A stretch of DNA of 64,000 bases from Bacillota bacterium (GTDB lineage: Bacteria; Bacillota_C; Negativicutes; JAEYSJ01). The position numbers and the translations under genes were made by a program. The DNA is taken from NCBI GenBank assembly GCA_023434855.1, contig JAEYSJ010000384.1, positions 1 through 64,000 of the forward strand. The letters run 5' to 3'. Below the pieces are notes generated by a model. The model saw only the letters and a list, made by a program, of their open reading frames with translations. It was not told the DNA's origin and made no database searches. Shown here piece by piece: positions 22,124 to 60,711 of the stretch; position 1 is the stretch's first letter, and the number at the start of each line of letters is the position of its first letter.

Positions 22124-23251
22124 TTAAATCAACAATACCATATTATCGCGATGTACAACCTCATCGTACGGTTTACAGCCCAAAATCGCAGCAATCTCAT
22201 TAGTATGAGCACCCATAATTTTTTGCACTTCTTCTACAGCATAATTAGCTAAACCTCTGGCAATTTCCCTGCCTTCCAGAGTAGTAATACTAATAGTGCT
22301 TCCATGCTCAAAATCACCATTAACTTTTTTGATACCGGCAGCAAGCAAACTTGAGCCACCTGCCAAAATAGCCTGTTCACAGCCTTTATCAATCGTCACC
22401 TTGCCGCGAATTCGCGCGCCGAAAGCCAGCCAGCGCTTACGTATCTGCAAACGGTTTTCCCTCGATAAAAAAATAGTACCCGCATTGACACCGTTTAATA
22501 TATCGCGCACTACACCGTCCCGGCAACCAGAGGCAATAACCATGGTTACTCCGGAATTGACGGCAATTTTCCCGGCCTGAATTTTTGTATACATTCCGCC
22601 GGTACCTCGCAGTGAGCCGGGTTCCCCGGACAACGCTTCAATTTCCGGCGTAATATCACTGATCTCCGGAATAAGCCGGGCCTTGGGATTTTTTTGCGGA
22701 TTATCCGTATATACTCCTTCTATGTCTGACAGGATAATTAGCACATCAGCATCTACAATACTTGCCACCATTGCAGATAACGTGTCATTATCACCAATTT
22801 TCAACTCGTCAATAGCTACTGCATCATTTTCATTGATAACCGGAATAACACCCATCTGCAAAAGGGTCAACAAGGCATTGCGGGAGTTGGCATAGCGTTT
22901 GCGTTTAACCGAATCCTCCCTGGTTAACAACACTTGCGCTACTACCTGGCCATACTCAGCAAATAATTTCTCATAAGTATGCATCAATATTCCTTGACCG
23001 ACAGCAGCAACTGCCTGTTTTTCCGGAATAGTCTTTGGTTTTTCCTTTAGCCCCAGACGATCCATCCCTGCACCGACAGCGCCGGAAGTAACCAGGATTA
23101 TCTCCTTGCCTTGGTTCGCCAGATCAGATAATTCCCTTACCATTTTTTCAATACGAAAAAAGTTTAACTTGCCAGTACTGTGGGACAATGTACTGGTACC
23201 GACTTTCACCACCAAACGCTTGGCGGTAGCCAAATTATCTCTGGTAAACAT
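22124..23251 (-). CDS. proB: glutamate 5-kinase with PUA domain
   Basis: First enzyme of proline synthesis: phosphorylates the gamma-carboxyl of glutamate. The amino acid kinase domain (about 1-255) has VKVGTSTL, VTSGAVGAG and GTGGMYTKIQAG; a C-terminal PUA domain follows (about 275-365). I start it at ATG 23251, about eight bases after GGGGG, giving 375 aa; the frame extends to 23281 without a ribosome binding site. proA is not adjacent. It follows yhbY and obgE, with a palindromic repeat between. Confidence 0.94.
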   Translation of the reverse strand: MFTRDNLATAKRLVVKVGTSTLSHSTGKLNFFRIEKMVRELSDLANQGKEIILVTSGAVGAGMDRLGLKEKPKTIPEKQAVAAVGQGILMHTYEKLFAEYGQVVAQVLLTREDSVKRKRYANSRNALLTLLQMGVIPVINENDAVAIDELKIGDNDTLSAMVASIVDADVLIILSDIEGVYTDNPQKNPKARLIPEISDITPEIEALSGEPGSLRGTGGMYTKIQAGKIAVNSGVTMVIASGCRDGVVRDILNGVNAGTIFLSRENRLQIRKRWLAFGARIRGKVTIDKGCEQAILAGGSSLLAAGIKKVNGDFEHGSTISITTLEGREIARGLANYAVEEVQKIMGAHTNEIAAILGCKPYDEVVHRDNMVLLI

Positions 23252-23326
23252 CCTTCTCTCCCCCACCTGCCTGTTGGCCATTGGTGCTAAGAAAACGCGA
23301 TTGCACTTGAAATATTAAAAACCTTC

Positions 23327-23406
23327 TAACCGCCAAGAACGCCAAGACCGCCAAAGGAATTTTATAATAGCAAACCCCTTGGCGTCCTTGGCGCTCTTGG
23401 CGGTTA
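23327..23406. repeat. palindromic element of 9-nt CGCCAAG units, copy 1
   Basis: The left arm carries three tandem 9-nt units of the form NCGCCAAGN after TAAC. The right arm (about 23377-23406) is the inverted counterpart and ends in GGTTA. The arms pair along almost their whole length; mismatches fall at the unit joints. The element fills the gap between proB and yhbY. Related copies are at 25585 and 49878. It is not a typical terminator because the T run is missing. Confidence 0.85.
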
Positions 23407-23421
23407 AATATTATAGCTCAG

Positions 23422-25446: not shown

Positions 25447-25584
25447 TATAATCCTTCCTTCCGTCATTGGCAGTTGATGTATAATTTCGCCTAATAAGGC
25501 GAAATTCCTGTCTCACGGCATAAGAAAAACGCCCAGCGTCTTTAAATATTCATTAGGCAACCACAATATTGTTAAAAACATGTC

Positions 25585-25687
25585 TAACCGCCAAGAACGC
25601 AAAGGTCGCCAAGAAAAGCATTGGATTATAAATTCTGATCCAGAAATATAAAAATTCCCTTGGCGTTCTTGGCGTCCTTGGCGGTTA
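25585..25687. repeat. palindromic element of 9-nt CGCCAAG units, copy 2
   Basis: Left arm 25585-25614 with units CCGCCAAGA, ACGCAAAGG, TCGCCAAGA. Right arm 25658-25687 is the inverted form with units ending in GGCGGTTA. The central 43 bases are A/T-rich and differ from copy 1. It lies between the Spo0B-like gene and rpmA. Confidence 0.85.
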
Positions 25688-25717
25688 ATCGTTTTCTCTG
25701 GCGGCCTCAAAAATATT

Positions 25718-43896: not shown

Positions 43897-44502
43897 TCAC
43901 TTCCTTTGCGGTATTACCGTAATCTTATACGCTGGAATCCCTAAGCCAGCCTCCACAGCTCTGGTTAGGTTTGCTTTAACTGTAGAATCATATGCACCTT
44001 CGGCAATTACTAGCACGCCTTTAATAACTGGTTTTAATTCCCTAAGCATTACCGGATGATCTACGCCATTTTCCTTGCTTAACAATATTTGTTCAGTTTC
44101 CTTGATTTCTGTCGTGGTGCGAATGCCACCGCCTGTGTCTTTTTCCTGTATAGTCTTGCTTTCCTTGGTAATATTTCTGGCAGGCTCCTGGGTACCGCCG
44201 TTTTCCAAAGTAATATTAACAGCTACCGCCCCTGCTCCTTTTACTTGTGATAATAAATTGGCCAGCTTAGCCTCCAGAGCTTCCTCATAATTACGAACTT
44301 GTGCCGGAGCACTTTTGGCTACTTCGGCAGGTGTTTCGACTTTGGATTTGTTCGGCTGGGAGTCCAGCAGTCCGCCGGATATCAGTAAAATTACTCCCAG
44401 AATTCCCAGCCAAACAAGCCGCATATTAAGCACACCACTTTTAAATAGTTGTGCGGGCCATATTTTTTTTGTTTTTTCGATAACTGCGTTAAAACTTGAC
44501 AT
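43897..44502 (-). CDS. spoIIIAG: stage III sporulation protein AG
   Basis: Ring-forming component of the SpoIIIA channel. One membrane segment (about 28-44), then a ring-building domain with YEEALEAKLANLLSQVKGAGAVAVNITLENGG and a C-terminal VIAEGAYDSTVKANLTRAVEAGLG. 201 aa. ATG at 44502 follows AGGAGG. A palindromic repeat separates it from spoIIIAF. Confidence 0.93.
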   Translation of the reverse strand: MSSFNAVIEKTKKIWPAQLFKSGVLNMRLVWLGILGVILLISGGLLDSQPNKSKVETPAEVAKSAPAQVRNYEEALEAKLANLLSQVKGAGAVAVNITLENGGTQEPARNITKESKTIQEKDTGGGIRTTTEIKETEQILLSKENGVDHPVMLRELKPVIKGVLVIAEGAYDSTVKANLTRAVEAGLGIPAYKITVIPQRK

Positions 44503-44544
44503 CCTTCTAGCCTCCTTCTCAAAATAGTTTTTCCTCCTTAAGGT

Positions 44545-44737
44545 GGGAACTGCTTATAAACCGCCATCTGCTTCGTTGTTCCTGCGATCCTCACTCCAAC
44601 GTACTTCCAGTACGCTTCCGTTGCGGTTCTCGTCTCGCCCGGTTTGGTTAATGTCTACCTTGTAGTATCTAAATCGTTATTCGCAATAAGTTAGAACTAT
44701 GAAACGGTGCATCTGACGATTTCTAAGCAGTTCGAGG
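44545..44737. repeat. spoIIIA-type palindromic element, copy 1 (spoIIIAF/AG gap)
   Basis: It starts GGGAACTGCTTATAAACCGC, continues with CATCTGCTTCGTTGTTCCTGCG, a CGTACTTCCAGTACG centre and CTCGTCTCGCC, and ends GCATCTGACGATTTCTAAGC followed by AGTTC. Ends are inverted relative to each other. About 65 bases (44640-44705) are inserted compared with copies at 45433 and 59301. The gap is otherwise without genes. Confidence 0.85.
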
Positions 44738-44768
44738 CATCTGATCTGAATATTTACTTCAAGTTACT

Positions 44769-45395
44769 TCAAAATAACTTTTGAATACTTATCTGCTCCT
44801 TGGGTAATTGGTACAGTTCGGCGATAGTGCGGGTTATTTTTTCTTTGAGCTCGGGGTTTAAATCCTCTTGGCCGGCTTGGGACTGCTCGGTGGCGGCTTT
44901 ACTGCCGATTGATACCGGCGGTACTTTGGTTACCTTTTTTTCCCCGGGCGAAATACCAGGCATCACATAGACCATAATCTTTTTGATACTGCCTGCCGGA
45001 TTTGCGCCGCCGGTATTCACATCAACGATTACTTTAGCGTCAGCCACACCGTCAACAGCCATCACCATCGCTTTTATTTGTTTAGCAAGGTCTCTTTTGT
45101 ACATTTCGTACGACAGCCGCTCCCGTTCGCCGGATACAGAAGCCACGGCGCTGACAATATCTGTCGCTTGAGACGAATTATTAATACTAGTACTTAGCGC
45201 GACTACATGATCATTGCCCCACCGGCTTTGGATAATATCAATAAACGGATTAAGAATGGCCAGCATGATAAACAATCCCATAATCACCCTGATAAACCGC
45301 TGCATATTGCTATTAGGAAGTAAAAGCTCCAGAAATGAAGCGAATAATACTACTAAAATAATCCCTTTAACCCATGCTGTAATTATCGCGATCAT
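44769..45395 (-). CDS. spoIIIAF: stage III sporulation protein AF
   Basis: Membrane protein of the SpoIIIA complex. Two N-terminal membrane segments (about residues 5-55, with LELLLPNSNMQRFIRVIMGLF), then a soluble ring-building-like domain (about 95-208). 208 aa. ATG at 45395 follows AGGTAGGTGA. Palindromic repeats lie on both sides, between it and spoIIIAE and spoIIIAG. Confidence 0.92.
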   Translation of the reverse strand: MIAIITAWVKGIILVVLFASFLELLLPNSNMQRFIRVIMGLFIMLAILNPFIDIIQSRWGNDHVVALSTSINNSSQATDIVSAVASVSGERERLSYEMYKRDLAKQIKAMVMAVDGVADAKVIVDVNTGGANPAGSIKKIMVYVMPGISPGEKKVTKVPPVSIGSKAATEQSQAGQEDLNPELKEKITRTIAELYQLPKEQISIQKLF

Positions 45396-45432
45396 TCTAT
45401 CACCTACCTGTTAACATCTACTCAATCAAGAT

Positions 45433-45560
45433 GGGAACTGCTTATAAACCGCCATCTGCGTCGTTGCTCCTGCGGTCCTCACTCCAACGTACGACCTAGT
45501 ACGCCTCCGTTCCGGTCCTCGTCGCGCCTAGCACCTGACGATTTCTAAGCAGTTCGAGGC
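45433..45560. repeat. spoIIIA-type palindromic element, copy 2 (spoIIIAE/AF gap)
   Basis: Same layout as copy 1 without the insertion: GGGAACTGCTTATAAACCGC at the left end, CATCTGCGTCGTTGCTCCTGCG, centre CGTACGACCTAGTACG, and TGACGATTTCTAAGCAGTTC at the right end. The first and last 16 bases are imperfect inverted repeats. It fills the whole gap between spoIIIAF and spoIIIAE. Confidence 0.88.
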
Positions 45561-45580
45561 ATTTTGAGAACCTGGCAGGC

Positions 45581-46741
45581 CTACCTCAGCATCATCGCCG
45601 CACTGCCGACACCAATAATCATCGTAATAGCTAAAAAAAACATTACTGCAACTGTTATCACCGCCCCAAAAATCAACAGCAGATTATTACCCATAGCATC
45701 CAGGCATTTGGCCATTTTTTCATCCCCCATCGGCTGAACCAAAGCACCGGCAATTTTTATGACAAGAATAAGAGCCAGCAATTTTATCACCGGAAAGGCA
45801 CAAATCATAAAAATTGCCACTACCCCGAATATACCTATTGCGTTCTTTAGCAATAAAGATGCGCCCATTACTACTTCCACTGTATCAGCAAGCATCTTGC
45901 CCACAACCGGAATAAAAGTGGCTGTAGCAAATTTAGCAGTCCGTAAAGTTACCCCGTCAGCTACACTGCCTGTCACCCCTTGAATAGTAATCATCCCGAT
46001 AAAAGCGACCATGGCAAAACCAAGCACCACCATGCCTGCCTGTTTAAACAGTCCGGACAGATTGCTTAAATGATATTTATCAGATAAATTGTTAACGCAC
46101 TCCAAAACAGCAGTCAGAAACAGTAGCGGCAGTACCGCATCTTTTACCACCACGCTAATTGTATTAACAACAAATAACATCAACGGCGTAAATAATGACG
46201 CCGAAGTCAGGGCACCTACGCCTGCCAGCAGGGAAATCAACAGCGGCAAAAGTGCTTCCATAAAACCGACCATATTTGCTACAGTTTGACTTGCCAGTGT
46301 CAAGGCACCAAACATGGCATTCAGTACTATGACCACCAAAAAAATATAGCACAAACTATAGGCCAATAATGATATTCCAGAATGCTCAAAGGAATTTTGC
46401 AAGTTTTGCAGCAAGGCACACAATACGGCTAAAAACACCAGCTTACCCATTAAATGGAGGTTGGTTGACAGTTCCCTAAACAACCGTGCAATAAAAGTCT
46501 GCCAGACGGTTTGCCAATTAAATGTCAGTCCTTTACCGGCAATATCTTTTAGAATGTCACCATTGAGCAAAGGAATGTCTTCATTTAGTTCACTGTTAAT
46601 TTTGCTGATAAACTGATTGACATTGTCGGTAGATAACGTATCCAACAGCTGCTGCCCAATAGCATTACTGTCAAGCGGCGCTGCTGCTGCACCTGCCGTA
46701 TATGCCAGCAATATGAGTAAAGTTATTAGCAATTTCTTCAT
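45581..46741 (-). CDS. spoIIIAE: stage III sporulation protein AE
   Basis: Polytopic component of the channel. A signal sequence (1-21, ending AGAAAA) is followed by about eight membrane segments, with GVTGSVADGVTLRTAKFA and PVIKLLALILVIKIAGALVQP as conserved blocks. 386 aa, as in Bacillus. ATG at 46741 follows AAGGTGG. Confidence 0.94.
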   Translation of the reverse strand: MKKLLITLLILLAYTAGAAAAPLDSNAIGQQLLDTLSTDNVNQFISKINSELNEDIPLLNGDILKDIAGKGLTFNWQTVWQTFIARLFRELSTNLHLMGKLVFLAVLCALLQNLQNSFEHSGISLLAYSLCYIFLVVIVLNAMFGALTLASQTVANMVGFMEALLPLLISLLAGVGALTSASLFTPLMLFVVNTISVVVKDAVLPLLFLTAVLECVNNLSDKYHLSNLSGLFKQAGMVVLGFAMVAFIGMITIQGVTGSVADGVTLRTAKFATATFIPVVGKMLADTVEVVMGASLLLKNAIGIFGVVAIFMICAFPVIKLLALILVIKIAGALVQPMGDEKMAKCLDAMGNNLLLIFGAVITVAVMFFLAITMIIGVGSAAMMLR

Positions 46742-46792
46742 CTTATTCCACCTTAAAAGCGTGTTTCAAGAAACACGCAACCTCAAGCTAAG

Positions 46793-46918
46793 GAGGTTGT
46801 TTAAAAATGTCCAGATGCGAGGCGCGATGAGGATTGCGCAACGCCGCGTACCGGGTTTGTACGCAAGTAAGCAACCGCAGGAGCAACGAAGCAGATGGGC
46901 GTTTTTTAACAGCCTCTC
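46793..46918. repeat. spoIIIA-type palindromic element, copy 3, variant ends (spoIIIAD/AE gap)
   Basis: In opposite orientation to copies 1 and 2. The core CAGATGCGAGGCGCGATGAG and GCAGGAGCAACGAAGCAGAT is shared, but the ends read GAGGTTGTTTAAAAATGTC and GGCGTTTTTTAACAGCCTC. These still pair with each other. It abuts the spoIIIAD stop codon. A separate hairpin GCGTGTTT-CAAG-AAACACGC lies at about 46759-46778. Confidence 0.85.
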
Positions 46919-47305
46919 TTAGGGGACAAACTTTACAACAGTATCAAGCACCAACGCAATAATCGGAATAGCTATTACCATTACCAAAACCTTGCCGGCA
47001 AACTCTATTTTTCCGGCCACAGCCCCTTCTCCCGCATCCCGGCATACTTGTGCTCCAAATTCGGTAATATAGGCGATACCGATAATTTTTAAAATTGTAT
47101 TTAAATATATCTGGCTGATACTGGCCTTCTCCGCCAAATCCCTGAACAAATTAAGGACAACATTAATTTTGGCAAGCACTAGCAAGAAAATAATAGTTGC
47201 CAGTGTCAGACTCAACTGCACAGCAATTTCCGGTTTTTCCCGTCTGATTATTAAAATAAGTAATGTCACCACAAATCCCAGTCCAATGATTTGAACGATC
47301 TCCAT
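46919..47305 (-). CDS. spoIIIAD: stage III sporulation protein AD
   Basis: Small membrane protein, distantly like holins or stator subunits, in the SpoIIIA complex. 128 aa with four hydrophobic segments, starting MEIVQIIGLGFVV as in Bacillus. I start it at ATG 47305, eight bases after AGAGG; the frame extends to GTG 47314. It follows spoIIIAC by about 40 bases. Confidence 0.93.
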   Translation of the reverse strand: MEIVQIIGLGFVVTLLILIIRREKPEIAVQLSLTLATIIFLLVLAKINVVLNLFRDLAEKASISQIYLNTILKIIGIAYITEFGAQVCRDAGEGAVAGKIEFAGKVLVMVIAIPIIALVLDTVVKFVP

Positions 47306-47344
47306 GCCGTACACCTCTTATAGAGCGTGTTGAAAACACGTCTC

Positions 47345-47545
47345 TTAGAATAGTTTAAATACGTCCTGCACCGTGGTGAACAACCGTCCCAACAATTGTA
47401 CAACCCACAACAATACCAAAGTAAACCCGGCCAATGTACATAAATGTGCCATATCTTCCTTACCTGCCTGTTTTAGTGCTGTATGAAAAACTGCTACCAG
47501 GATGCCAACCCCGGCAATTTTAAAGAGCACGTCCAAGCCCACCAT
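47345..47545 (-). CDS. spoIIIAC: stage III sporulation protein AC
   Basis: A 66-aa protein with two membrane helices (about 5-25 and 35-58), beginning MVGLDVLFKIAGVGILVAVFH, close to Bacillus SpoIIIAC. GGAGG lies five bases before ATG 47545; GTG 47542 with eight-base spacing is also possible. Confidence 0.93.
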   Translation of the reverse strand: MVGLDVLFKIAGVGILVAVFHTALKQAGKEDMAHLCTLAGFTLVLLWVVQLLGRLFTTVQDVFKLF

Positions 47546-47631
47546 CCCCACCTCCGTCTCTCAATCTCCGATTTTAAAATATTTTGAATCAGTCTCGTTT
47601 AATTAAGGTACCTGTATGTTAAAATACACCC

Positions 47632-48153
47632 TCATAGCAAGAGAATTATCACAGCTAAACTGCCGCAAACACCAAGGTAACGGTACATTTTTGTATTCTG
47701 GTCCCGTATTTTTATAGCATCAGACTCAATTTGGGCCAATTGCTGCTGCACCATATCTAAATATTTCTCTTGTTCTTCACGGCTTACATACCCTAAGTTG
47801 GCCCCTAAAGCAGCTAAAATTTCTGTCTCGGGTTTGCATAGTACCAATTTGCCTTTTGCCTGAACCAATGCTTGATCTATAGCTTCCTGTGGCGTCATCC
47901 AGCCATTGCACTGTAGAATGTCCGCCACATTTGTAAACAGTTCAGCCACCGGGCCTTCTGTGCCTGTCACACAACGGTCCAAGGCATCAGGCAGCGGCAT
48001 GGCAACATAATTGATATATGATTTCAAAGACGCCAGACAGCCGATAATCTGCCTAATTTGCCGCGGACGTTCACTGCAGCGTGCTGCCATTTGAAAACCA
48101 ATAAGTGTGCCTGCAATCACTACCAGTGTACTGCCGAAGATTTTTAGCCACAT
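47632..48153 (-). CDS. spoIIIAB: stage III sporulation protein AB
   Basis: GspF-like membrane protein of the SpoIIIA machine. 173 aa with membrane segments near both ends (about 5-22 and 155-173) and the family motif ERPRQIRQIIGCLASLKSYINYVAMPLPDAL. It overlaps the spoIIIAA end by ten bases. Confidence 0.93.
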   Translation of the reverse strand: MWLKIFGSTLVVIAGTLIGFQMAARCSERPRQIRQIIGCLASLKSYINYVAMPLPDALDRCVTGTEGPVAELFTNVADILQCNGWMTPQEAIDQALVQAKGKLVLCKPETEILAALGANLGYVSREEQEKYLDMVQQQLAQIESDAIKIRDQNTKMYRYLGVCGSLAVIILLL

Positions 48154-49145
48154 ATTTTTACTCCTTTCGCCGCATACATAATTTCGCCGTTTTTTACAGA
48201 GATAATTTCTTCCACAGTACCAACCTCCGGCTCATTACTGAGCACAATATAACGATCAAAATATTTATAACGGATCAGTTCGCCGATAAATGGGCGATGC
48301 AAAACCTCTTCAGCATCTCCGCCATGTACACTGGCAATTACACTAACGCCAGCATTTACCGCCTCTCGAACCGCCCAGGCATCCTCCTCGCGTCCCAGTT
48401 CATCAGTAACAACTACCTGCGGGGCCATGGAGCGGATTAGCATTAACAGGCCATCAGCTTTAGGACAACCATCAAGTACATCCACCCGGCAGCCTAAATC
48501 TACTGTGGGAATACCATTTTGACAGGCGGCAATTTCTGAACGTTCATCCACAACTCCAACCTGTACGCCGCTAAATTTGCCGCATAAACTGCCACCGCTG
48601 ATATGTCTGATAATATCCCTCAATATTGTTGTTTTACCGCAGCGCGGCGGAGAAATCAGCAATGTATTCAGCACATGCCTGCCCCCTGTAATAATGTAGG
48701 GAATGATTTGATCGGCGCAGCCTTTCACTTCTCTGGCGATGCGAATATTCATTGAATTAATGTTCTTTAAAGTTTTGATTTTGCCGTTTTCCACTATTGC
48801 CTGTCCAGCCAGACCGACCCGGTGTCCACCATTAATAGTCAGAAATCCTGTTTTTAGTTCTTGTTCAAAAGCGTACAAGGAATTTTTACTGATTAGCTGC
48901 AATGTTTTTGCTAAATCATCCCTGCTGCATACATAAGCTTCACTAAACGTGTCTATTGCCTGGCCACTCAAATTTAACATGACATCAGTATTACTCAGTA
49001 CCAAAAGCAAAGGCAGTTCTGCCCGTAAACGCACTTCAGTTACCTGATTTAATAATATATTCGGCGTTCCCTGCAGTACCGAGACTAACTGAGGAGACAG
49101 TACCGGGAAAACGCTTTCTTTCAGAACATTGCTGACATCACCCAT
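48144..49145 (-). CDS. spoIIIAA: stage III sporulation protein AA, secretion-type ATPase
   Basis: Cytoplasmic ATPase related to type II/IV secretion ATPases, thought to power the SpoIIIA channel. Walker A is PPRCGKTT (around residue 155), followed by VGVVDERSEIA and VVTDELGREEDAWAVREAVNAG. 333 aa. ATG at 49145 follows GGAGGATTTAAG. First gene of spoIIIAA-AH; a sigma-E-like promoter precedes it. Confidence 0.95.
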   Translation of the reverse strand: MGDVSNVLKESVFPVLSPQLVSVLQGTPNILLNQVTEVRLRAELPLLLVLSNTDVMLNLSGQAIDTFSEAYVCSRDDLAKTLQLISKNSLYAFEQELKTGFLTINGGHRVGLAGQAIVENGKIKTLKNINSMNIRIAREVKGCADQIIPYIITGGRHVLNTLLISPPRCGKTTILRDIIRHISGGSLCGKFSGVQVGVVDERSEIAACQNGIPTVDLGCRVDVLDGCPKADGLLMLIRSMAPQVVVTDELGREEDAWAVREAVNAGVSVIASVHGGDAEEVLHRPFIGELIRYKYFDRYIVLSNEPEVGTVEEIISVKNGEIMYAAKGVKICG

Positions 49146-49739: not shown

Positions 49740-49877
49740 GGTAAAAACCCCCTTTGATACTATGTTCATTATGGATATTGGTATTATGCCCAATATCCGC
49801 AAAAACATAAACTATGAAAAATAAAAAAACCGTCAGGTGTCTTTGAATATCATTTGACAATAAACACATCAAATATC

Positions 49878-49940
49878 TAACCGCCAAGGCCGCCAAGAGC
49901 GCCAAGAAAACATTGGCGTTCTTGGCGGCCTTGGCGGTTA
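49878..49940. repeat. palindromic element of 9-nt CGCCAAG units, copy 3
   Basis: The most compact copy: left arm TAACCGCCAAGG, CCGCCAAGA, GCGCCAAGA, loop about eight bases, then the inverted units TTGGCGTTC, TTGGCGGCC, TTGGCGGTTA. The arms pair with one mismatch. It lies between efp and the CD1247-type gene. Confidence 0.9.
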
Positions 49941-50010
49941 ACCGTTTTTCCCGCTCGCTAGCTAGTATTTCTTCCTAAAAACGCTACCGATCTGGCAACC
50001 TCAAAAATAT

Positions 50011-53398: not shown

Positions 53399-55057
53399 CT
53401 ATTTTGCCAAAATCTCAGAAAATATTTCCCGGAAAATTGGTGCCGCTACATTGCCCCCGGACATACCTTCCTCCACAAAAACCACTGCTGCAAACTGGGG
53501 ATTATCAAGCGGCGCGTACCCTGCAAACCATGCATGGTTAATACTCTGCCCCGCGGCATTGAGCCGGCCTGTTTCAGCTGATCCTGTTTTCCCAGCTGAC
53601 CCTACTCCCTCCACATAGGCTGCCTGCCCTGTACCATAACGGGTAACCGCAGTCATCATTTCCCGCATTTCCCTTGCCGTACGCCTTGACAGCACACGCG
53701 TTCCCCGGGATGCAGGAAAGTTTTTTATTACTACCCCTTCGGTGGTAGCAAATTTACTAACAATATATGGATCAACTTTTATACCGTCATTGACAATAGT
53801 AGCTACCAGTGACACAATCTGCAGCGGGGTAGCTTCAAAGCTTCCCTGTCCAATAGACAGATTGGCAAGTTCTCCCGGATAAATATTTTCCGGAGAAGGC
53901 AAATTGCCATCAGCTTCCCCATCAAACTCCAGCCTGGTACGGTGTCCGAAACCTAAACTTTGCGCATAAGAGATTAATTTTTCCGCCCCCAGCTTCAGAC
54001 CTACCTCAATTAAGGCCGGATTGCTGGAATAGGCCATGGCATCGGTAAAAGTAATCCAGCCCCGGCCCCCTTTTTCATAGTCCCAGCCATTAAACCGTAT
54101 ACCATTCACATTAATATACCCGGGATCAAAAAACCTGTCATTAGGCTTTACTACCTCACATTCTAAAGCTGCCGCCGCCACTACCAGCTTAAACACCGAA
54201 CCCGGCTGATAGGCGGACAAAGCCCGGTTGAGCAGGGGGGCGGCATCTTGCGATAAGTACTGACTTAAATTATTGGCATCAAAATTAGGCCGGGAAGCCA
54301 TGGCCAGAACTTCGCCGGTTGACGGATGAAGAACTACTACCGCCCCTTTAAGAGCATGGCGATCCATTACTTCTTCAACTATTTTTTGTATACGGCTGTC
54401 TAATGTCAGAACAACATTACTGGGACCTGGCCCATTACCAAACCTTATATGTTTATAACCGAGGCCGGGAATAATTTGCTGTCCGGCGTCCACCAGTACG
54501 GCAGTATATTCCGGTTGGCTGCTCCGCAGCACCTCGTCATACATACTTTCAATACCGCTGACTCCCCGGTTATCGGCAACATTAATATACCCGGATACAT
54601 GAGCAGCTAATGGGCTATAGCCATAACGCATCTTTTCCGTTACCGCTAAAACTCCCGGTATTTTAAGAGTATTTATTTTTTGCGCAGTAACACCGTCGAT
54701 ATTTGTTTTTAGCTTAAACGGTTTACCCTCTTCTGCAATTGTTGCCATAATCTTATCTGGCGCTATCCCGGTAAACACGCTGAGCTTACCCACCGTGGCA
54801 GATACATCAGCCAACAGAGAAGGAAAAACAATAATGCTGAAATGCTGTGCAGTATTAGTCAGCGGCAGCCCATTACGGTCCAGGATTTCCCCCCTGGCAA
54901 TGTCCATGGGCACTTCCTGAATACGCCCTCCTAATCCTAATACAGCCAGCCTTGGCCCTTCGACTATCTGCAGATAAAACAGGCGGGCAATCAACAGACT
55001 GCTAATTACCAGAAAAAAAATCCCTAATTTGTATATCCGCCAAACATTAAATGCCAT
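53399..55057 (-). CDS. class B penicillin-binding protein (transpeptidase)
   Basis: Peptidoglycan transpeptidase with one membrane segment (about 8-28), a dimerisation domain and a penicillin-binding domain with SVFK (AYQPGSVFKL), SSN (YSSNPAL) and KTGS (AGKTGSAETG) motifs. There is no PASTA domain. 552 aa. It resembles PbpB/SpoVD-type enzymes and could serve sporulation or division. ATG at 55057 follows GAGGTG. It follows DUF4911 and U32 peptidase genes, outside the usual mra cluster. Confidence 0.9.
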   Translation of the reverse strand: MAFNVWRIYKLGIFFLVISSLLIARLFYLQIVEGPRLAVLGLGGRIQEVPMDIARGEILDRNGLPLTNTAQHFSIIVFPSLLADVSATVGKLSVFTGIAPDKIMATIAEEGKPFKLKTNIDGVTAQKINTLKIPGVLAVTEKMRYGYSPLAAHVSGYINVADNRGVSGIESMYDEVLRSSQPEYTAVLVDAGQQIIPGLGYKHIRFGNGPGPSNVVLTLDSRIQKIVEEVMDRHALKGAVVVLHPSTGEVLAMASRPNFDANNLSQYLSQDAAPLLNRALSAYQPGSVFKLVVAAAALECEVVKPNDRFFDPGYINVNGIRFNGWDYEKGGRGWITFTDAMAYSSNPALIEVGLKLGAEKLISYAQSLGFGHRTRLEFDGEADGNLPSPENIYPGELANLSIGQGSFEATPLQIVSLVATIVNDGIKVDPYIVSKFATTEGVVIKNFPASRGTRVLSRRTAREMREMMTAVTRYGTGQAAYVEGVGSAGKTGSAETGRLNAAGQSINHAWFAGYAPLDNPQFAAVVFVEEGMSGGNVAAPIFREIFSEILAK

Positions 55058-58838: not shown

Positions 58839-59255
58839 TCAGTGCGGTAAACTATCCAGATAGCCCTGCAAAATAAACACTGCAGCCATCTTGTCAATTA
58901 CTTGCCGACGCTTGGCTCTGCTTACATCTGCAGCAATAAGAGATTTTTCTGCCGCCACAGTTGACAAGCGTTCATCCCAAAGTTTGAGTTTCATCTCCGG
59001 AAAGTTCTCACTCAGTTTATCAGCAAATTGTTTAACCAATTCGCCTCTGGGACCAACTGTTCCGTTCATATTTTTGGGAAAACCGACAACAATAGTATCC
59101 ACTTCATACTGAGTGATTATTTCGCCCAGCCTGGCAAAGTCTTTGGCGACAGAAGTCCGCCGGATAACTTCTACCCCTTGCGCTGTCAACAGCAATGCAT
59201 CACTAACAGCTACACCAATAGTCTTATCCCCCACATCAAGTGCTAGTATGCGCAT
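58839..59255 (-). CDS. ruvX: YqgF/RuvX family nuclease-fold protein
   Basis: RNase H-fold protein required for 16S rRNA 5'-end maturation (pre-16S nuclease); earlier called a Holliday junction resolvase. It starts [19 protein letters not shown] and has [31 protein letters not shown] and [14 protein letters not shown] with the acidic catalytic residues. 138 aa. ATG at 59255 follows GGAGG. Confidence 0.95.
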
Positions 59256-59300: not shown

Positions 59301-59427
59301 AGGAACTGCTTATAAACCGCCATCTGCTTCGTTGCTCCTGCGATCCTCACTACAACGTACTTCCAGTACGCCTCCGTTGCGGTTCTCATCGCGCCTCGCA
59401 TCTGACAATTTCTAAGCAGTTCGGGGC
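59301..59427. repeat. spoIIIA-type palindromic element, copy 4 (ruvX/aldo-keto reductase gap)
   Basis: AGGAACTGCTTATAAACCGC, CATCTGCTTCGTTGCTCCTGCG, centre CGTACTTCCAGTACG, TCTCATCGCGCCTCGCATCT and GACAATTTCTAAGCAGTTC. It is nearly identical to copies 1 and 2, with inverted ends. The rest of 59256-59498 shows no gene. Confidence 0.88.
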
Positions 59428-59498
59428 ATTTGATGGCCCCTAGCCATTAAGTTTAAATAATCATTTGGGATACCTTTTAAACTATCTTTAAACATTCT

Positions 59499-60452
59499 TT
59501 AAACAATCTTTAGACAGAACTCTGGGCAGTGGGCGCCGCAGTAGCCGCAGAGGACGCATTTTTGCATGTTGGGGATGGCTTTGTTGTGGTCGATGGTTAT
59601 TGCTCCCATCGGGCATTTTGCGGCGCATTTGCCGCAGCCTTGGCACCAGTCTTCAACAAGTAGCCGGCGCCGTCTGGCTGTAACCTTGTCGAGGAGGCAT
59701 TTGTTTACCGGCTGTCCGGTGAACAACGCGCAGTTTAGAGCAACTTCATCGCCGGACTGCATGCCAACGGCAATAGCACTAATAGCAGGCTGCTTCAAAA
59801 CCCACGCCAAAGCATCCTGAGAATGTTGGCTCAAATGTCCTCCACCCAGTGCCTTCATCGTGTATATGCCTTTACCCATTGACGATGCAAAAGAAATGGC
59901 TTCAAGCATTTCCTGCACTGTGCCGTCGCAAATGCCAATACCGTGCATATTTAGTATTGGATGAATAACATCGATTTCGTCATACAATGCGGCAGCCCGT
60001 ACTACCTCGACGGTATGAGTGGATACCCCTGCTGCCCGCACCATTCCCTGTTTTTTAGCCTGCGCCAAATAAGACAGCGCATCTTGGTGTCCCTTCAACG
60101 TCAAACGGGAAGTCTGCTCATGCAGCAGAAAAATATCCACATAATCCCGTCCAAGTTCATGGCAGGCTTTTTCTAAACTGCACCGCATCGCTTCACGACT
60201 ATATGCATAGGATTTCGAAGCAATTATGACATCCTCTTTACCGGCGAAACCTTGTAATGCCTCCCGGATATAACCATAAGTATGGTAAAGCTCTGCTGTA
60301 TCGATAAAATTAACCCCTGCATCCAGCGCTTCCTTAATCACGGCAGCACCTTGATCCAGGGGCAGATTTGCCTGCAACGGTCCAATAGTAAGCGCACCAA
60401 AGCATAACCGCGATACTTCTAAACCAGTACGGCCTAAAAAACGGTATTTCAT
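59499..60452 (-). CDS. aldo-keto reductase with two C-terminal 4Fe-4S clusters
   Basis: Oxidoreductase of the ferredoxin-containing AKR group. The barrel (about residues 1-255) has GRTGLEVSRLCFGAL, FIDTAELYHTYG and the catalytic Asp/Tyr/Lys/His set (D near 47, Y52, K near 79, H near 111). The C-terminus holds CQGCGKCAAKCP and CVLCGYCGAHCP, two cluster-binding motifs. The substrate is unknown. I start it at ATG 60452, one base after the ireB stop, giving 317 aa; the frame extends to 60491 inside ireB. It is an addition to the conserved ireB-ruvX order. Confidence 0.9.
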   Translation of the reverse strand: MKYRFLGRTGLEVSRLCFGALTIGPLQANLPLDQGAAVIKEALDAGVNFIDTAELYHTYGYIREALQGFAGKEDVIIASKSYAYSREAMRCSLEKACHELGRDYVDIFLLHEQTSRLTLKGHQDALSYLAQAKKQGMVRAAGVSTHTVEVVRAAALYDEIDVIHPILNMHGIGICDGTVQEMLEAISFASSMGKGIYTMKALGGGHLSQHSQDALAWVLKQPAISAIAVGMQSGDEVALNCALFTGQPVNKCLLDKVTARRRRLLVEDWCQGCGKCAAKCPMGAITIDHNKAIPNMQKCVLCGYCGAHCPEFCLKIV

Positions 60453-60453
60453 T

Positions 60454-60711
60454 TTACTTATCTTTAAGATATGCCCTGACCAGTTCTTCAAGCAGCTCGT
60501 CCCGCTCCAGTTTACGAATCAGCCCGCGGGCATTGTTATAACTTGTAATATATGTGGGATCACCGGATAAAAGGTATCCGACAAGTTGGTTAATTGGATT
60601 GTATCCTTTATCTTTTAAAGCCTGATTCACGGTGGCGATAATATTTGCCGCCGCATTATTTTCTTCGTTGTCAACACGAAACATCATGGTCTCTTGGGAT
60701 AAATTGGACAT
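60454..60711 (-). CDS. ireB: IreB family regulatory phosphoprotein
   Basis: An 85-aa protein of the IreB/YrzL family (DUF965), which in Enterococcus is phosphorylated by the PASTA kinase IreK and restrains cephalosporin tolerance. N-terminal Ser/Thr residues ([12 protein letters not shown]) and the [29 protein letters not shown] core are present. ATG at 60711 follows GAGGAGG. It lies next to alaS, its usual place. Confidence 0.94.

Follow-up and report, generated by a model that had tools for sequence, protein, structure and literature searches.

A 64,000-nucleotide stretch of a Negativicutes genome (hereinafter the window; contig JAEYSJ010000384.1, positions 1 to 64,000) carries the sporulation operon spoIIIAA-AG, three of whose intergenic gaps hold members of one family of imperfect palindromes; here we describe this family and the sites at which its young members insert. 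The gene names given in the original prediction agree with NCBIfam, whose spore_III_AA to AG profiles all match the operon, those for AB and AG slightly below their curated cut-offs. One palindrome each lies in the AD/AE (177 nt), AE/AF (185 nt) and AF/AG (266 nt) gaps (c1, c2 and c3, respectively; Table 1), just where the three related elements had been placed. Their shared core, CATCTGCNTCGTTGCTCCTGCG, has four matches in the window at up to three mismatches and none in 100 shuffles, the fourth lying outside the operon (c4); a covariance model scan of the window likewise returned c1-c4 and nothing further. The expected length of about 130 bp fits all but c3, a long form with a 66-bp insert, and one copy is indeed inverted relative to the others, though it is c1. 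This copy starts right behind the AD stop codon and presents the strand reading CATCTGC (hereinafter the S strand) on the mRNA, whereas c2 and c3 are antisense, the mRNA carrying the complement of S.

Folding of the mRNA strand, which had been suggested as a check, gave an extended hairpin for every palindrome (z of -2.19, -3.22 and -2.98 for c1, c2 and c3). A search for terminator-like sites called none inside the three, the single such call on the mRNA strand (46799-46778) spanning the end of c1 and its linker. No Rfam family was found on the palindromes, either at gathering thresholds over the whole window or at E up to 10 over 44500-46950, the one match, salivarius-1 (E 1.8), falling under its gathering score. 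The hairpin just past the outer stem of c1 also stands beside related copies in other genomes, at an offset that was 12-14 nt wherever measured (five copies, including c1). The claim that the spoIIIAA-AD gaps are free of repeats did not hold, as the 30-nt AC/AD gap contains a standalone CGTGTT..AACACG hairpin. Every other instance of this hairpin in the loci searched adjoins a c1-type copy, and none occurs in 800 kb of sample from genomes G017 and G095; the AC/AD hairpin may hence be the relic of a c1-type copy, that is, of a fourth insertion in the operon.

Table 1. Features of the spoIIIA operon and of the palindromic elements in the window.
Feature	Position	Strand	Evidence or remark
spoIIIAA-AG operon, holder of the insertions	43897..49145	-	NCBIfam matches
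spoIIIAA	48144..49145	-	
spoIIIAB	47632..48153	-	
spoIIIAC	47345..47551	-	
spoIIIAD	46919..47314	-	
spoIIIAE	45581..46741	-	
spoIIIAF	44769..45395	-	
spoIIIAG	43897..44502	-	
Standalone hairpin CGTGTT..AACACG, AC/AD gap	47323..47344	-	
Copy c1, AD/AE gap, GAGGCTGTT subfamily	46793..46918	-	covariance model, 124 bits
Terminal hairpin GCGTGTTT..AAACACGC, just past c1 outer stem	46759..46778	-	
Copy c2, AE/AF gap, GGGAACTGC subfamily	45433..45560	+	covariance model, 112 bits
Copy c3, AF/AG gap, long form	44545..44737	+	45.7 bits, score cut by the insert
Internal module of c3, 66 nt, in 3'-arm internal loop	about 44641..44706	+	
Hairpin at c4, perfect 10-bp stem and 9-nt loop	59274..59302	+	ends exactly at the 5' edge of c4
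Copy c4, between ORFs (open reading frames) 58839-59255 and 59499-60491	59303..59428	+	105 bits

The four copies belong to a chromosomal repeat family that extends well beyond the spoIIIA operon. A model (R1) built on 40 copies (set A1; the 64 first matches minus partial and duplicate copies) matches 12 of 12 genomes in the family group of genome G002 at E <= 1e-5, at least 57 of 200 in a class-wide sample (E <= 1e-7, 16 candidates scored per genome), and at least 6 of 299, G017 included, in a sample of the phylum at E <= 1e-9 (11 candidates scored per genome). G017 alone yields at least 137 matches (150 of 904 candidates scored); even sampling of 20 x 20 kb (400 kb) recovered 15 copies there, which extrapolates to about 180, and 4 in G095. 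Copies of the window's own subfamily are present in G017 although the SpoIIIAE proteins are just 65% identical. Clustering of the kind seen in the operon recurs elsewhere: the transketolase genes of three genomes (L201, L202 and L205) have three copies around them in a span of about 2.6 kb, and G017 has seven neighbouring pairs less than 2.4 kb apart against 2.7 expected (from 75 listed places of the 137). In genome G021 (contig C1), equal-score matches at 22905, 48653, 74401 and 100149 are spaced by exactly 25,748 bp, a tandem duplication or an assembly artefact. One query each against plasmid (c2), phage (c1) and viral contig (one exact pattern) collections found no match.

Copies may carry optional modules. 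In several G017 copies a module of about 70 nt takes the position of the c3 insert, and others have modules elsewhere; modules of about 40-70 nt, where measured, occupy internal positions in L182, L183 and L185 (transketolase gaps), L119, L120, L123 and L339, several of them sharing one internal loop of the element.

The flanks of young copies revealed how the element inserts. Among the first 140 copies collected, comparison of the two flanks picked out four with long direct repeats (0.1 expected), all of them whole hairpins. Using two of these four as queries, we fetched the best 46 of 188 (172 + 16) matches and kept the 31 that were at least 90% identical over more than 100 nt and not duplicates. 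Direct repeats with a score of at least 12 flank 22 of the 31, against 0.15 expected from permuted partners, and come from genomes G001, G015, G017, G088 and G102, the earlier-found L142 coming from G095; the set also includes four copies from G135, up to 97% identical, none of which has direct repeats. The duplications are particular to each locus and measure 16-35 bp, varying with the length of the hairpin, and 21 of the 22 form hairpins with 5-12 bp. Between the left repeat and the outer stem there are 0-3 nt, while the right repeat begins 12-18 nt past that stem (5 nt in L337), after a tail usually resembling TTTGTCTACAAGCTG. A T-rich stretch follows the right repeat in 17 of 22 copies, an A-rich stretch precedes the left one in 14, as at two-way terminators, and in 18 an ORF in S sense ends within 130 nt upstream. 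Young subfamilies thus insert at a hairpin, mostly the intrinsic terminator at a gene end, and the whole stem-loop is doubled around the element, the downstream copy therefore keeping the T-run. The hairpin abutting c4 has this same geometry; the adjoining ORF 58839-59255 is a putative yqgF/ruvX-like gene. We also considered capture of the outer stem from the target hairpin and rejected it, as by eye the two stems differ in L142, L096, L212 and L238, the first four copies in which a duplicated hairpin was seen.

An occupied site can be compared with its empty counterpart at thiC, for which eight loci were fetched, the model matching only that of G088 and the gene end being unreadable in three more distant genomes. 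Behind thiC of G088 stand a hairpin, the element (141 bp between the repeats), an identical 26-bp hairpin and then the T-run. In G001, whose ThiC protein is 95% identical, the same hairpin occurs once with no element, and thiC of G135, G095 and G015 each ends in one terminator of related sequence, again with no element. Filled and empty sites together show that the element enters intrinsic terminators and doubles the stem-loop, with a complete terminator remaining downstream. At this thiC copy (L361) and at L142 the right terminator stem runs on into the element tail, with bases complementary to the T-side flank, as if the extension had been copied by fold-back synthesis.

Several observations weigh against a general mechanism of this kind. 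The young set was seeded with two copies chosen for their duplication, without which the count becomes 20 of 29. Hairpin duplication is seen in just 4 of the 140 first-collected, mostly older copies and in none of the four in the window (best flank repeats score 6-9); terminator targeting by the window's own subfamily (GGGAACTGC) is therefore not directly proven, the route by which the four window copies entered being inferred from the family. The spoIIIA gaps of relatives that correspond to those entered by c1-c3 offer little space for a terminator. A simple staggered cut does not account for L307 and L142, in which the right terminator stem enters the element tail. Finally, opposite-sense ORFs, counted as a control, end within 130 nt downstream in 13 of the 22 copies, and 12 have ORF ends of both kinds, so that many targets are flanked by convergent genes; we accordingly abandoned a firm assignment of the direction of insertion.

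These junctions also bear on the proposal that the family is a classical miniature inverted-repeat transposable element (MITE) of ERIC type, with terminal inverted repeats, moved by the DDE transposase of an absent or unrecognised insertion sequence and making a fixed short duplication. In being small, non-coding, palindromic, intergenic and of high copy number the element resembles ERIC and other MITEs as these are described in PMC2229807 and PMC10969869. However, its 3' end lacks an outer inverted repeat, a tail of 5-18 nt extending beyond the stem, and the duplication is 16-35 bp rather than fixed, itself a hairpin in 21 of 22 cases. Nor is there clear copy-specific pairing outside the outer stem: such pairing, suspected in G017 copies, was not clearly above the between-copy level, 269, 74 and 29 of 300 permutations in three groups equalling or exceeding the observed mean. 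The loci inspected by eye showed no transposase-like ORF, though their ORFs were not run through a family search. ORFs between or beside copies were only host-gene-like by the same inspection, no genome-wide search for an autonomous relative having been made. Between copies spaced 1.1-1.3 kb apart lie host genes, for instance those of transketolase subunits (named by eye), rather than a transposase or RAYT (REP-associated tyrosine transposase; REP, repetitive extragenic palindrome) gene. The half-elements of G017 (L338-L341 and L343) have no transposase-like ORF beside them by eye (again with no family search) and were dropped as candidate ends of a bigger element. Taken together, these features make a classical MITE unlikely.

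The second line of evidence concerns the fold. An alignment of 98 copies, 96 of them distinct, has standard pairs in 91.7% of paired cells, against 75.1% in shuffles and 30-39% with the arms slid, figures that flatter the pairing because the structure guided the alignment and numerous rows are related. Both sides have changed in 27 of the 31 pairs, none of 500 shuffles reaching any of the observed measures; when column pairs are ranked by covariation, the first nine belong to the structure and the tenth (columns 40 and 183) does not, and 138 elements display 95 distinct outer stems. At orthologous transketolase gaps of sister species, compensatory swaps are evident by eye (GATGCTGGTT/AACCAGCATC, GCGGATGGCT/AGCCATTCGC and GCGGGTGGCT/AGCCGCCCGC). 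One fold is thus maintained across copies by compensatory change, and the original observation that differing ends stay complementary, together with its proposed search for compensatory changes across aligned copies, is borne out. In the upstream transketolase gap (L181-L189) the class of the inner hairpin domain varies by eye between sister species while the outer stems are unchanged, as if inner domains had been exchanged by recombination between copies. The tktN/tktC gap shows short hairpins (L209, L206 and L207) where Sporomusa has the element, and that of L209, which retains the element's CAGATGGACGTTTTC end, is likely a deletion relic.

Whether this fold is selected in RNA or in single-stranded DNA is less plainly written in the pairs. 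Mismatches between conserved pairs of the S strand are mainly pyrimidine-pyrimidine by eye, so its complement can form tandem G.A pairs; the complement also folds better in 116 of 138 elements. In outer stems the wobbles on the mRNA strand comprise 25 G-U and 8 A-C cells (five of the counted cells stem from the misaligned L183), and in core pairs the G-U falls on the S strand regardless of direction. As the wobble pairs point both ways, we rejected a clean verdict from them.

RNA-like covariation, asymmetric ends, duplications of variable length and the lean towards the coding strand described below (44 against 19 copies within 200 nt) are what one would expect of an RNA-mediated element akin to short interspersed elements (SINEs), copied at the terminator by a reverse transcriptase. 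Yet no RVT_1 match was found in G095, G088 and G102, all of which have copies with duplicated hairpins, or in G135, and the direction at young insertions is ambiguous (18 S-sense against 13 opposite, overlapping), which leaves a SINE-like route very unlikely. Hairpins are also typical substrates of Y1 HUH enzymes, and PF01797 matches in 10 of 12 genomes would allow such an enzyme to be the mover in a REP/RAYT-like system. Against this, G015 has hairpin-duplicated young copies (L309, L315 and L327) and no PF01797 match, that of G088 is a fragment with stops, and G135 has none. A copy is present at just 1 of 30 loci around Y1 genes, the duplication does not fit, and an element of about 125-190 bp is far from REPs of 20-40 bp; we regard a REP/RAYT-like mover as the most improbable of the explanations considered. 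The Y1 and RVT_1 absences are provisional because most of these assemblies are in pieces.

Gene context was tabulated for the first 140 copies with mechanical ORF calls, counting orthologs and subfamilies separately and excluding c3; seven copies had no flanking ORFs. For 104 copies an ORF was present within 400 nt on either side; the flanking genes are co-directional in 77 cases, convergent in 17 and divergent in 10. Within 200 nt, 44 copies are in S sense and 19 opposite (rows not independent), and the median distance from the upstream stop codon is 5.5 nt for 52 S-sense copies against 53 nt for 25 antisense ones. The position of c1, in S sense right behind the AD stop codon, is hence typical for the family.

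The original prediction had viewed the three palindromes as components of spoIIIA kept by selection, which would tune the ratio of its channel proteins through partial termination or processing of the mRNA. That three copies sit in one operon, all of them between cistrons, that their mRNA-strand hairpins are strong and their pairing kept, and that the AC/AD gap of genome G073, of another lineage, contains a c1-type copy right behind the AC stop codon (L175), would all suit such a role. To compare relatives, SpoIIIAE homologs were gathered, leaving 37 other Negativicutes genomes after removal of ten duplicate genomes; gap starts were extrapolated from tblastn, and AF/AG was out of reach in one locus. 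The gaps reach at most 54 nt (AD/AE), 51 nt (AE/AF) and 43 nt (AF/AG), and none of the 37 genomes has a copy in any of these three; the palindromes are therefore no conserved spoIIIA device. The family is moreover dispersed genome-wide, clusters around transketolase genes (L201, L202 and L205) and in G017 as well, and places its young copies at terminators of unrelated genes; in spoIIIA, c1 is opposed to c2 and c3, and no terminator-like call falls inside a palindrome. A dedicated spoIIIA function thus appears quite improbable. In Sporomusa species (L002 and L003) the spoIIIAB/AC gap is 145-154 nt long, with no match to the hairpin-element family.

We conclude that the palindromes very probably represent a small, non-coding chromosomal mobile element of Negativicutes, whose young subfamilies insert at, and duplicate, terminator hairpins. 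The element would consist of a hairpin of about 125 bp with a short 3' tail and optional internal modules of about 40-70 nt. A candidate enzyme might recognise the shape of a hairpin, be it extruded or single-stranded DNA or RNA, and guide integration there; retention of a working terminator would make such insertions benign. By the same or a laxer route c1-c3 may have reached the spoIIIA gaps, where they would form spacer hairpins in the transcript; an influence on the decay of spoIIIA mRNA or on stoichiometry may exist as a side effect. We put forward more tentatively, as a possibility that we do not yet favour, that the family typifies a new, shape-guided class of mobile elements. Such an element would find folded terminator hairpins of any sequence, enter at the hairpin base and leave a whole working terminator downstream; it would lack an inverted repeat at its 3' end and use its own conserved fold, as single-stranded DNA or RNA, as the substrate. 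In at least one host with young copies (the draft G088), in which no intact Y1 or RVT_1 was found, it would do so with neither enzyme.

The main interest therefore lies in a new kind of targeting and not in a sporulation switch. Bacterial palindromic repeats, ERIC, YPAL and BOX among them, were recognised decades ago; in our view, how they move and whether their fold is under selection are mostly open questions. Here one family offers both a dense record of covariation and young insertions with an empty site, which show the target and the product, and the predicted hairpin-reading integration enzyme can now be sought. The case also cautions that hairpins inside an operon need not mean gene-specific regulation. 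We found no description of the family in titles and abstracts, mostly of open-access papers, on palindromic or small repeats of Negativicutes, Sporomusa, Selenomonas and Veillonella, on ERIC-like or dispersed palindromes, on terminator insertion and on YPAL.

Other repeats and signals in the window include a second palindromic family (TAACCGCCAAGAACGCCAAG .. CTTGGCGTTCTTGGCGGTTA) at 23322-23407, 25580-25688 and 49873-49941, a short direct repeat (CACATAGGCTGCTTCCC..) occurring twice within 1-79 and once at 53612-53648, and a c-di-AMP riboswitch match at 406-546.

Among known systems, group IIC introns share the preference for a terminator hairpin; they are large ribozymes with a reverse transcriptase that insert beside such hairpins and are not known to duplicate the target, whereas the Negativicutes element is about 140 bp long and duplicates its target. 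ERIC (or IRU) of enterobacteria, described as 127 bp long, with repeats at its termini and TA dinucleotide ends, cotranscribed with its neighbours and affecting mRNA stability in an orientation-dependent manner (PMC2229807), is alike in length, long imperfect hairpin, high copy number and cotranscription. It differs in its type of duplication, the junctions of young Negativicutes copies lying at hairpin bases with no TA duplication. NEMIS (Correia) of Neisseria is comparable as a small element with a transcript hairpin, in its case cut by RNase III (PMC2229807, PMC10969869), but is described as having true terminal repeats with TA dinucleotide ends (PMC2229807) and lives in another host. The Chunjie MITE of Geobacter uraniireducens, 178-235 bp long (PMC10969869), parallels c1-c3 in sitting within an operon, reportedly without disturbing it (cited in PMC10969869), and is set apart by its conserved terminal and direct repeats. 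Nearest in kind, going by its description in PMC2229807, is YPAL (RU-2) of Yersinia, an intergenic palindrome of about 168 bp with internal inverted repeats and no TA ends, whose target duplications vary from 3 to 26 bp at targets spanning or adjoining dyad symmetry. The likeness, judged on that description, extends to internal repeats, the lack of TA ends, intergenic location and a variable duplication at dyad symmetry. The host groups are unrelated, however, and in the Negativicutes the target is resolved as an intrinsic terminator that is doubled whole, by an element with conserved internal loops, covarying stems and optional internal modules.

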